The notes beneath the pieces are model-generated. The model had not been told where the DNA came from. It ran no database searches and was given only the letters and a program-made list of their open reading frames with translations. 20,680 nucleotides of DNA from the NCBI GenBank assembly GCA_023807065.1, contig JAJJLU010000738.1:1-20680 (forward strand), given 5' to 3'. Of the stretch, positions 20-20,680 are shown piece after piece. Every line of letters begins with the position of its first letter. Position 1 is the first letter of the stretch. The stretch comes from Isotricha intestinalis (taxonomy: Eukaryota; Ciliophora; Litostomatea; Vestibuliferida; Isotrichidae). The position numbers were made by a program, and so were the translations under genes.

Positions 20-1497
20 AAAGTAAATTAAAAAAAAAAATAAAAAAGCAAAAAATATTAATAAAATATTAGCCAGTCATTTAATATTATTAATTAATTA
101 TAGTATGTAATATAATATTATTAATTAATTATAGATAGTAAATATAATATTATTAATTAATTATAGATAGTAATATAATATTATTTATTAATATAGGATG
201 TAATATAATATTATTAATTATTATAGATAGTAATATAATATTATTATTAATTATAGTGGATAAGATAATATTATTAATTAATTATAGCAAGTAATATAAT
301 ATTATTATTAATTATAGGGAGTAATATAATATCTTTTTTATTTAATTATAGGAAGTAATATAATATTATTAATTAATCATAGCAAGAAATATAATATTAT
401 TAATTAATTATAGGGAGTAATATATTATTATTAATTAATTATAGGGAGTAATATTATATTATAAATAATAAGGGAGTAATATAATATTATTAATAATTAT
501 AGTTTGTAATATAATAGATTATTAATTAATTATAGTCAGTAATTTAATATTATTATTTAATTATAGTTTGTAATATAATATTATTAATTAATTATAGTGG
601 ATAAGATAATTTTATTAATTAATTATAGATAGTAATATAATATTATTAATTAATTATAGGGAGTAATATAATATTATTAATAATTATAGGGAGTAATATA
701 ATATCATTAATAATTATAGGGAGTAATATAATATTATTAATTAATTATAGTATGTAATATAATATTATTAATTAATATAGGGAGTAATATAATATTATTA
801 ATTAATTATAGATAGTAAATATAATATTATTAATAAATTATAGGAAGTAACATAATTTTATTAATAATTATAGTTTGTAATATAATATTATTAATTAATT
901 ATAGAGAGTAATATAATATTATTACAATTAATTATATGGAGTAATATATTATTATTAATTAATTATAGGGAGTAATATACTATCTTTTTTATTTAATTAT
1001 TGGAAGTAATATAATATTATTAATTAATTACAGTATGTAATATACTATTATTAATTAATTATAGCCAGTAATATAATATCTTTTTTATTTTTGATTGTTA
1101 ATTATTTTAAATAATTTAAAAGTGTGTATTTATTCTTTTATTTTAGTATGTAATTTTTATTTTATCTTTTTGAATGTAATATTATTAATTATATTATAGA
1201 ATGTAAAATGAATTTAAAATTAGAATGTAAAATAATATTAATTGTAGGCTGTATTTAATTAATTAATATATTAGTGTGTATTTAATATATTTAAATTAGC
1301 CTGTAAATTATTATTAATTAGAGAATGTTTTGATATATTATAATTTTAGTGTGTAATTAATTAAAATAATATAAAGGGAGTAATTAAAAATTAAATTAAT
1401 AATTAGAAAGTAATATATTATTAATATGATAGAAAGGAGTATATAAGTTATATATTTTTAGGATAATTCTAAAGAAGCACATGAATTAGGAAAATAA
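20..1497 (+). CDS. Putative gene built of single-codon exons (5' end outside window)
   Basis: Forty-seven 3-nt units are separated by intron-like spacers, nearly all GT...AG. They start at AAA 20, CCA 73, TAT 104, ATA 135, ATA 167, GAT 197, ATA 227, TGG 257, CAA 288, GGA 318, GAA 352, CAA 383, GGA 414, GGA 445, GGA 473, TTT 503, TCA 536, TTT 567, TGG 598, ATA 629, GGA 660, GGA 690, GGA 720, TAT 751, GGA 781, ATA 812, GAA 844, TTT 874, AGA 905, GGA 938, GGA 969, GAA 1003, TAT 1034, CCA 1065, ATT 1094, TGT 1123, TAT 1147, AAT 1173, AAT 1200, AAT 1224, GCT 1248, TGT 1275, CCT 1300, AAT 1324, TGT 1350, GGA 1377 and AAA 1407. A 6-nt exon (1433-1438, KG) and a terminal exon (1462-1497, DNSKEAHELGK, TAA) follow. 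No triplet is a stop. The only triplets ending in G or C are the two TGG (Trp). The first part is Gly/aromatic-rich; the end carries Cys-x5-CPNCG, a zinc-knuckle-like motif. Phase is 0 throughout. Splicing is inferred, the function is unknown, and a non-coding satellite remains the alternative. Confidence 0.6.
73..1067 (+). repeat. Tandem array of near-identical 27-31 nt intron-like units with 3-nt variable separators
   Basis: About 33 copies of one unit occur here. The typical copy starts GTAATATAATATTATT and ends AATTAATTATAG. Between successive copies lie exactly three variable bases. From the triplet at 73 to the triplet at 1065 there are 32 intervals over 992 bp, a mean period of 31.0 bp, close to three helical turns. 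Most copies differ by one to three bases. Some share special variants: ATAAGATAAT after both TGG triplets (260, 601), a CTTTTTTATTT block (321, 972, 1068) and GTAAATATAAT (138, 815). This indicates internal duplication of blocks. Each unit has TTAAT close to its end, which fits a YTRAY branch-point consensus. The array could be read as a satellite, but the bases between copies behave like codons. Confidence 0.9.
1068..1461 (+). other. Diverged short intron-like spacers continuing the 3-nt exon pattern
   Basis: After 1068 the spacer sequences no longer resemble the upstream unit or each other, and most are shorter (21-27 nt). The AG-NNN-GT grammar still persists: for example the spacers 1126-1146, 1176-1199, 1203-1223, 1227-1247, 1251-1274, 1278-1299, 1303-1323, 1327-1349, 1353-1376, 1380-1406 and 1410-1432 all begin GT, end AG and are separated by exactly three bases. 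The spacers at 1068-1093 and 1150-1172 end TG instead of AG, so the triplets ATT 1094 and AAT 1173 are less certain. The last spacer, 1439-1461, ends TTTTTAG and leads into an ordinary coding exon. This part is hard to explain by satellite amplification. Confidence 0.65.
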
Positions 1498-2370: not shown

Positions 2371-3204
2371 TTACTTAGATAAATTCAAATAAAATTGAAA
2401 AACTTCTTTTTCAATACTGAAAAGGGTTTTCCCACAAATTACAATAGAATGAAGTGGCATTCCAAAATCCATATGTAAAACATCTTTAATTTTTCCACAT
2501 TTAATAGTTTGTGTTTCACTTCCAATTCTGGCTAAACCAAAGCATAAAGACTCTAAACCAATGACTCCTCTGTATTCTTCTTTTTCACATTTTTCACTAG
2601 CTTCAATTAATTCATTAAGCCCTTCATTAACACTCATAAATTTAGGTTTTTCATAAATTTTTTTTCCTTTGATTAAATTCTCTTCTGAAATTTCTTTAAC
2701 TTTAATATCTAAAAGAACCAAAGTATGAAAATTATGAATATAATTAAAGCATATTTTCTCATAAAAAGAATAAGGTCTCCATTTTTCAGTAAAGAAAGGA
2801 ATAGAGACTGTTTCACCAAATCGATAAAGAGAAAGTCCTGTGATGCCAACAGCGTTAAGGATACTAGCGTTGTGTACTGTCTCTACATGAACACCCTCAC
2901 TTATACAACGAAGGTATAAGTCCATGTGAGTTGTAGCACTGAAGGGGTCTCCTACTACAAGGAGGGAGACTTTGTGTTCTTTTGCTTTTGAAAGTATTTC
3001 ACTATCAAAATTAGATTCTATCATTTCACGATCTGCTAATATTATTGGCTTTTCATATAGGGATTCTAATTTTGATTTGTCTACTGAAAGAATTGAAGTG
3101 TAGTATTCCATATATATATAATCTGAAGATTTTATATATTCTAATCCACGTAAGGTTATGTTCTTCTCATCACATAATCCTAACCCTATTAGGTAGAGGA
3201 CCAT
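2371..3204 (-). CDS. DPH5: Diphthine methyl ester synthase
   Basis: The 277-residue protein fits the eukaryotic/archaeal DPH5 family in length and motifs. This family uses S-adenosylmethionine to methylate the modified histidine of translation elongation factor 2 in the cytosolic diphthamide pathway. The sequence shows the SAM-dependent tetrapyrrole-methylase-like fold: N-terminal LYLIGLGL (3-10), YMEYYTSIL (31-39), GDPFSATTH (85-93), the long conserved HNASILNAVGITGLSLYRFG block (111-130), KWRPYSFYEKI (141-151) and the late GLESLCFGLARIGS segment. The start is the only sensible ATG, directly before MVLYLIGLG. The gene is intronless, ends TAA and diverges from the large lipid-transfer gene across about 270 bp. 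Codon use matches the neighbours, and nothing suggests transfer. Confidence 0.95.
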   Translation of the reverse strand: MVLYLIGLGLCDEKNITLRGLEYIKSSDYIYMEYYTSILSVDKSKLESLYEKPIILADREMIESNFDSEILSKAKEHKVSLLVVGDPFSATTHMDLYLRCISEGVHVETVHNASILNAVGITGLSLYRFGETVSIPFFTEKWRPYSFYEKICFNYIHNFHTLVLLDIKVKEISEENLIKGKKIYEKPKFMSVNEGLNELIEASEKCEKEEYRGVIGLESLCFGLARIGSETQTIKCGKIKDVLHMDFGMPLHSIVICGKTLFSIEKEVFQFYLNLSK

Positions 3205-19349: not shown

Positions 19350-20635
19350 TCAAACTTTTTTATTTTCATAAATTTTTAGTAGTGTTTATGTATTATTATT
19401 TATTTGATTATATTATATTGAATTTTTGAATTTTTTTTTTGATATACTTTTTTTCTTTTATAAAACTTATTATTACTTATAAAAAAAAAGTTTAAAATAA
19501 TAAAAATTTTTTATTAATTTTTTATTTTGTAAAATTTGTTATTTTTTTCACTAAGGAATAGAAGTTTCTAAATTGTTTTTGAAAGATGCAATAAATAATA
19601 TCAATTCAAATTACTTAAAATTTAATTAATATTTTGATAAATAATTCATATAATCTCTTAGGTATAAAAAATCAAAATTCTAATTAAAGTTCAAATTTTA
19701 ACTAATTAAGAATTGAATCTTACTAAAATATAAATAATATGTTTTTTTTATTGATAAAATTCTAACTGAAATTTTGTTTTTGATAAATTATAAATTAGCA
19801 TTAAGCAATTAAATTAAAAATGTAAAAAAAAAAAATTTAATAAAATTAAAATATGATATCTTAGATATATTTTTCTTTTTTTCCAAATAATCATTTATCT
19901 GCATTTATATTCTAATATTTATAAATATCTCTATATTTTTTTCATTAAATTTTCAATACATCTTTTTATTTATTATTAAATTATATAATTAAATGAAATA
20001 TTACCTTTATCATTATCTTATTATATCTTCAAACTTAGATAAAAATAATTTGAATATTTTGTTCTATATTCTAAAAAAAAAGGAATTGAAATTATAGGAG
20101 TAACTTAAAATGAATTTCTAAAATTCAGAATATTTTTAAAGAATTATTTAAATATGTAAATATAAGAATGAAAATCTAATTGTTATTTGGGCAATTATAA
20201 TTCATTATGAAAATAATTTAAGAGAAAAATGAATAAAATTCAGAAAAGAAAGAAAATAAAAATATAGAGTTCTATATCAAATTATTTATAAACAAATATT
20301 TCATATTATGTTCTTTTTTTAACGGTAAATATTGTTTTGAATTCAAGTTGATATCCAAATTGATGTTTCAATTTAAGATGAAAAATTTGGACATATATTT
20401 ATTAATTAAAAAATTAAATGATATGGAATAATACATTTTATTTTTAAATGAAATTGACCAATAATTCTCATTTTAAAACATTTCAAATATGTATATAATA
20501 ATAAATTGATGTCACAAATATTTATATTATCCATATTAAATATAAATATAATAAATTCATTTTTTATTTGTTTTATTTAAAAAATAATTATATTTTCCCT
20601 TTTAACAATAATAGCATAAAATTTATTTTTTTCTT
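19350..20635. other. Non-coding subtelomeric region
   Basis: About 1.29 kb with no intact gene. The sequence is AT-rich without obvious tandem repeats, unlike many subtelomeres. Short open stretches exist, such as plus strand near 20170-20231 (reading NLIVIWAIIIHYENNLREK) and minus strand 20397-20306, but each is under 35 codons and bounded by stops. They may be chance or remnants of decayed genes. Confidence 0.45.
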
Positions 20636-20680
20636 GGGGATGGGGATTGGGGATTGGGGATTGGGGATTGGGGATTGGGG
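20636..20680 (+). repeat. Telomeric repeat tract, (GGGGATT)n
   Basis: The last 45 bases consist of one GGGGAT, five GGGGATT units and a final GGGG running to the window edge. The abrupt change from more than 80% AT to a G-rich strand reading 5'->3' towards the end has the polarity expected for the right telomere of a linear chromosome. The unit resembles ciliate T2G4 with one inserted A. It could also be an internal G-rich microsatellite, but its position and polarity favour a telomere. Confidence 0.85.

Follow-up and report, generated by a model that had tools for sequence, protein, structure and literature searches.

At the left end of the 20,680-base stretch analysed here (the window, which makes up the entire contig C538; the genome assembly comprises 57.3 Mb in 2,153 contigs), the plus strand repeats AG, three bases, GT many times over, which raises the question of whether the three-base units are the codons of a gene in which each codon forms an exon of its own. 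A direct reading found 40 strict AG-NNN-GT sites within 20-1409. The features concerned, with exons and introns as predicted and positions counted within the window, are as follows.

20-22, plus strand: single-codon exon AAA (AG-AAA-GT), the first visible unit; the gene runs off the left contig end
23-72, plus strand: 50-nt GT..AG spacer, from the chain path and a by-eye comparison with paralogue L013; probably two introns fused through loss of a splice site
73-75, plus strand: single-codon exon CCA (Pro), assigned by eye; likely the P of a conserved ...WKGExxP motif, the 5' part of which lies beyond the contig
76-1093, plus strand: 33 introns of 25-31 nt with consensus GTAATATAATATTATTAATTAATTATAG, alternating with 32 single-codon exons YIIDIWQGEQGGGFSFWIGGGYGIEFRGGEYP
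260-287, plus strand: intron with an AT donor, ATAAG...TATAG, after TGG, the first of two in the window
601-628, plus strand: intron with an AT donor, ATAAG...TATAG, after TGG, the second of two in the window
1094-1432, plus strand: single-codon exons ICYNNNACPNCGK and 13 introns of 21-27 nt, outside the 31-bp array described below, with a C...CPNCG motif
1433-1438, plus strand: 6-nt exon AAAGGA (Lys-Gly), identical in paralogues L022, L023, and L025
1439-1461, plus strand: last intron, 23 nt, GTATAT...TTTAG
1462-1497, plus strand: ordinary terminal exon DNSKEAHELGK* with TAA at 1495-1497; several paralogues have similar last exons
20634-20680, plus strand: telomere (TTGGGGA)n, which reads (CCCCAAT)n on the opposite strand

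Decoding of 76-1432, with no more than one mismatched splice site tolerated per intron, yielded 46 spacers of 21-31 nt and 45 triplets; 43 of the spacers start with GT, 42 end with AG, and 39 do both. The original prediction had listed 48 spacers, 45 starting with GT and 44 ending with AG, and the decoded counts agree with it except for the splitting of degenerate units; its spacer length of mostly 21-31 nt was likewise recovered, the spacer at 23-72 having 50 nt. Together with AAA at 20 and CCA at 73, the decoding gives 47 triplets without a stop, so that the proposed open reading frame was recovered, and the 6-nt exon, the intron following it, and the terminal exon with its TAA were all found as claimed. 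Seven of the 46 introns lack either GT or AG, the departing donors being AT at 260 and 601 and GA at 386, and the departing acceptors AT at 937 and TG at 1002, 1093, and 1172. The best chain through the window comprises 42 introns and scores 34.6, far above the maximum of 3.0 in five local shuffles, which bears out the predicted grammar. The segment 20-1497 represents the 3' portion of a gene truncated by the contig start.

Is a length of three nucleotides special? When the exon length was left free between 1 and 15 nt, 239 of 256 exons at 11 loci came out as exactly 3 nt, and when it was fixed at values from 1 to 12 nt, long chains (11-39 introns) appeared only at 3 nt, at six of six loci. 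A pattern of three linked 3-nt exons matched the genome 276 times and its reversed control four times; a stricter three-exon pattern gave 46 matches (control 1), a pattern spelling W-K-G 16 (control 0), and the version with 4-nt exons none (control 4). Dozens of loci besides the window carry single-codon stretches between spacers of about 26 bases. We examined 54 loci, some of which may be allelic to each other or duplicated in the assembly. Runs of 10 or more consecutive introns occur at 46 of them, of 20 or more at 30, and of 40 or more at 19. At the 46 loci, 1,451 of 1,585 introns are canonical GT...AG, and the median length of the array spacers is 26 nt.

The window gene is a member of a family (family A) that numbers at least 23 genes in this genome, no two of the 23 being near-copies. 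Positions 1060-1520 match 57 places in the genome, and paralogues of the 1094-1432 region share 92-95% DNA identity with it, the CPxCG motif being seen again in those that were decoded. The family layout consists of a first exon ending in ...KWEL-AG, an intron, a 1-nt exon, another intron, the single codons, and an ordinary last exon, and the joined codons read C-x-x-C-x-Y-Q-F-W-K-G-E-x-x-P, followed by a variable middle and C...C-P-x-C-G or C-C-G. As judged by eye against paralogues, the window copy begins inside the gene, at about the P of this motif. The first exon, which the original prediction had expected further to the left, was found in the paralogues: it is an ordinary exon present in 20 of the 23 genes, and 21 genes, 20 of them within the set of 23, could be anchored at it. 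In these 21 genes the base of the 1-nt exon, left unconstrained, is A in 16, G in four, and T in one (C661, a poor parse), and the codon that it finishes encodes Arg in 17, Lys in three, and Ser in one. A genome-wide pattern of first exon, 1-nt exon, and first Cys codon, which permitted only A or G at the 1-nt exon, matched 18 times (13 A and five G; for example, C453:8002-8065) and never in the reversed control. The joined motif WELRCxxCxYQFWKGExxP ... CPxCG is conserved and zinc-finger-like.

In C826 and several other members, the protein is longer and the split region encodes its C-terminal end, and upstream in C826 lies a B-box-like domain just below the Pfam cut-off. The joined proteins themselves gave nothing above the Pfam cut-off. 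A protein search with the joined translation, by which the original prediction had hoped to check the gene, gave no support, with none of 114 candidate homologues at E <= 0.01. When an unsplit genomic copy was sought, only the query's own last exon matched. The joined codons of family A are rich in W, C, and G (6.4%, 7.2%, and 10.9%, in comparison with 0.4%, 1.4%, and 2.9% in six genes of the window) and poor in S, N, L, and V; the constraint imposed by the splice sites may shape the composition of these proteins.

Whether the triplets behave as codons could be assessed independently, since chain decoding relied on spacer length and the bases at the splice sites alone, with no coding information. 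When the same array was tested for stops in the paralogues, none was found among 795 triplets with AG before and GT after them, where 81 ± 8 would be expected after a shuffle of bases and 100 ± 7 after a shuffle of positions; this set covers the 23 family-A genes with good chains and leaves out short fragments including C1221 and C1149a, in which one of five and one of three canonical codons, respectively, is a stop. The first of these fragments, C1221, may be a decayed copy. With non-canonical units included, the 23 genes have 891 units, two of which are stops (in L064 and L074). The GC content of the family-A triplets is 0.31 and that of the introns 0.12. In a comparison of 15 paralogues at 11 motif positions, identity is 73% for homologous codons and 30% for codons at non-homologous positions, while the corresponding figures for the introns are 72% and 70%; in eight diverged genes, intron identity is 0.698 at homologous and 0.685 at non-homologous positions. 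Differences between the codons of the 15 paralogues are least frequent at the second position (0.31, 0.19, and 0.32 at positions one to three), and 1,155 codon comparisons comprised 522 identical, 103 synonymous, and 530 non-synonymous pairs. The first Cys of the motif, conserved in 13 of 13 decoded genes, is written TGT in seven and TGC in six, and the motif Gly, present in 15 of 15 genes, GGA in 12, GGG in two, and GGT in one. Synonymous-codon usage of the triplets correlates with that of the window genes (r 0.95) and equally with the trinucleotides of the introns (r 0.95).

The same architecture recurs in genes unrelated to family A. Contig C1849 carries 128 consecutive introns, all of them different and 126 of them GT...AG, which enclose 127 consecutive single-codon exons without a stop, the other two frames having 14 stops each. 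The exon upstream resembles the end of an ADP-ribosyltransferase (ART) domain, with a match just below the Pfam cut-off; this exon and the array may form one gene. Contig C546 has 69 introns in phase 0, again all different. In C439, C1606, C1561, C72, and one of the two split genes of C2, only frame 1 is open, which means that their codons straddle the introns; in C94 one stop remains in the most open frame, also frame 1. All frames are free of stops in L059, the other split gene of C2. The joined product of C439 would be hydrophobic, and the exon upstream of the C1606 array encodes a B-box (E 1.3e-9). Within the frame-1 group, the joined codons of L061 (C439:2000-5200), L057 (C94:6300-9500), and L058 (C2:40600-42700) end in C-x-x-C. 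For the exons that precede the arrays of L061 and L057, Pfam gave no match, and a reading of the C439 and C94 upstream exons as a trypsin-like protease, which we had considered, is unsupported by Pfam.

The window array could also be seen as the remains of a dead gene, or as non-coding DNA, namely a subtelomeric minisatellite that only looks like exons and introns. Tandem Repeats Finder (TRF) places a 31-bp tandem array at 56-1079, a point absent from the original prediction, some splice sites have been lost, and the C1221 copy holds a stop; the window copy alone might therefore pass for a minisatellite. For the family this is excluded by paralogues whose introns all differ. At C1201, C546, and C1849, the 62, 69, and 128 introns, respectively, are all distinct and the 3-nt periodicity is the same, and we have therefore rejected a minisatellite-only origin for the family. 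Neither a minisatellite nor a dead gene agrees with the absence of stops from 795 triplets and with the conserved motif, so that this explanation is extremely unlikely. Considering the open frames, the conserved joined motif, the codon-like pattern of substitution, the exact 3-nt exons throughout the genome, and the unrelated genes built likewise, the original reading as a gene of single-codon exons is upheld as far as sequence data can take it. Very probably, each codon is a separate exon of 3 nt, and the introns on either side, mostly GT...AG and about 20-30 nt long, are predicted to be spliced out successively by the spliceosome.

Removal of the spacers could, in principle, take place at the level of DNA, RNA, or translation. 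A U1 snRNA gene was identified at C831:209-368 (E 1e-16) with ACUUACC near its 5' end. In a donor census of 16 loci, array introns with a matched body start with GT in 137 cases, with AT in 26, and with other dinucleotides in 11, so that AT-AG introns with an ATAAG donor are the main non-GT class there. The donor is followed by AAG in 20 of the 26 AT introns and in 35 of the 137 GT introns, an apparent compensation. If AT donors are allowed, C826 and C1008 regain the conserved Pro, which suggests that the AT-AG introns are probably used.

Ordinary genes of the genome remain open under the standard code. Among the best 150 of 621 candidate Ras-domain matches, a sample skewed towards uninterrupted genes, 148 have no internal stop, and the two exceptions are Rab genes with 39-nt GTA...TAG introns; ordinary genes seem intron-poor. 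These two introns, proven by homology, are longer than the array introns. It is also notable that a genome of 57 Mb contains 150 or more Ras-domain matches, out of 621 candidates at first look.

Three copies of the telomere repeat match the genome 840 and 746 times, with none in the reversed control, and the repeat at 20634-20680 identifies the right end of the window as a telomere-capped chromosome end. Some contigs among the first 100 matches listed have telomeres at both ends, such as C2, with the repeat at 4-31 and 90,025-90,052 of 90,057 and two split genes in between. Telomere-capped contigs of this kind would be macronuclear chromosomes. Balantidium is a litostome. The repeat (CCCCAAT)n has been described as the telomere of the litostome ciliate Muniziella, which uses the standard code (PMC11316547), and of Balantidium (PMC10978948). 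Judged by its telomere motif and genetic code, the organism is likely a litostome, and probably a ciliate living in the gut.

With the organism likely being a ciliate by its telomere motif, the spacers might be internal eliminated sequences (IESs) left in the assembly, which would be removed from DNA and not from RNA. Ciliates do delete short AT-rich DNA segments; known IESs, however, end in TA, and the spacer borders are GT...AG in the 1,451 of 1,585 cases given above and not TA, the two Rab introns are bordered by GTA...TAG as well, and C2, capped at both ends, retains two split genes. We consider an IES origin very unlikely. Translational bypassing, in which ribosomes hop over the spacers as they do over the byp elements of some yeast mitochondria, would likewise yield a joined protein from an interrupted frame, but gives no reason for GT...AG borders, for AT-AG donors with a compensating AAG, for a 1-nt exon, or for phase-1 splitting, and is hardly conceivable here. 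Due to the GT...AG borders, the U1 snRNA, the similar ordinary introns, and the presence of the spacers in telomere-capped chromosomes, spliceosomal removal from RNA appears to be the best explanation.

Under spliceosomal removal, the spacers would be recognised as short units (intron definition). Since a 3-nt gap is too small for the complex at an acceptor and that at the following donor together, neighbouring introns would have to be removed sequentially or alternately, with every splice lengthening the exon available for the next. Skipping of an exon, or fusion of two introns after loss of a splice site, would delete codons while keeping the frame; as nearly all exons are 3 nt, both events would be frame-neutral, and the layout should be tolerant of error and decay.

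How such arrays arise is indicated by their most uniform parts. C1349 contains a run of seven 28-nt introns without a single difference over 196 nt, and the six codons between them, GAA TTA GAT TGG GGA GAA (ELDWGE), are of five kinds; in the window, identity is 94% among the 28-nt introns, of which there are sixteen, and 33% among the triplets that follow them. The coding reading may be right and the arrays nevertheless the product of tandem duplication of a codon together with its intron, followed by divergence of the codons. Higher-order repeats of 184 and 215 bp in the window and duplicated blocks in C826 (DSWVKDLGDEE) and C1925 (GLFG) are in line with this, and equal neighbouring codons exceed expectation in some genes (8 observed vs 3.9 expected in the window, 12 vs 5.1 in C546) but fall below it in others (1 vs 3.6 in C1201). 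In contrast, duplication of the unit would have copied the codons too, and selection on codons cannot produce such change while the introns stay as they are, so that the identical introns of C1349 and the near-identical ones of the window disfavour it; we regard unit duplication as possible, though somewhat doubtful. Identical introns between different codons suggest that introns were inserted, or homogenised, between codons that already existed, and such copying or homogenising fits better than unit duplication. The type of intron differs from array to array: GTAATATAAT... in the window, GTAAAATAAT... in C1925, where 14 identical 28-nt introns occur (L072), and a 33-nt type of its own in C439, with nine identical copies. 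The intron consensus is present on many contigs, mostly at family-A loci as far as these were decoded. We infer that intron copying or homogenising and the duplication of blocks both act: arrays would have grown through introns copied or homogenised between existing codons, larger blocks of codons plus introns being duplicated as well.

Small exons in series are known from the micro-exon genes (MEGs) of schistosomes, the exons of which vary between 6 and 36 nt and are separated by long introns. Runs of small symmetrical exons are found likewise in our arrays (239 of 256 exons of 3 nt), but here the exons are almost uniformly 3 nt, the introns are about 26 nt, and up to 127 such exons stand in a row. 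Stentor, a ciliate with tiny GU-AG introns resembling the array introns, has exons of ordinary size. Its spliceosomal introns are described as AU-rich and 15-16 nt long, and the term microexon is absent from that report (PMC9505925). Microexons, according to a 2026 review, typically measure 3-15 nt (PMC13149111), and a spliced 1-nt exon has been described in APC11 of Arabidopsis (PMC4674806) and a 3-bp exon in homothorax of Drosophila (PMC7392893); these are isolated microexons, whereas the exons of our arrays form an uninterrupted series. Introners, which spread through many genes by copying themselves as introns (PMC9860276), similarly give rise to near-identical introns at many sites, as in C1925 and C439; unlike introners, the near-identical copies here are packed within one gene, 3 nt apart, and are of different types in different arrays.

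For a series of codon-sized exons, no precedent was found in the open-licence literature on tiny and single-nucleotide exons, micro-exon genes, ciliate genomes and introns, and introners. This agrees with the original prediction of a new gene architecture, and a gene built codon by codon would be new if its spacers are spliced as predicted. Models of splicing presuppose enough space for the machinery at either side of an exon, and 3-nt exons in rows of 40 to 127 would make ordered, sequential intron-definition splicing directly testable; if spliced, the reading of one gene (C1849) would join up to 127 one-codon pieces in succession. The arrays also freeze intron gain at the densest state imaginable, so that intron multiplication can be tested within one genome. 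Ordinary gene finders would probably overlook such genes, and similar ones may therefore exist unseen elsewhere. A further scenario, in which self-copying introns invade the junctions between codons until no two codons share an exon and skipping then generates a library of peptides with fixed zinc-binding ends and a variable middle, is speculative and in our view unlikely.

Beyond the array, the window contains a 277-aa gene with a tetrapyrrole-methylase domain (PF00590) at 2371-3204 on the minus strand, which we take to be a likely diphthine synthase. It overlaps 2501-3000, the only stretch of the contig with 32% G+C, the rest ranging from 10 to 23%. A kinase gene of the window has 353 relatives at E <= 1e-100, at least some of which are annotated as calcium-dependent protein kinase. 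Closer to the array, at about 2080-2200 on the plus strand, the sequence resembles by eye the catalytic loop of a protein kinase (HRDIKPEN...DFG) without forming a full gene, and is perhaps a gene remnant.
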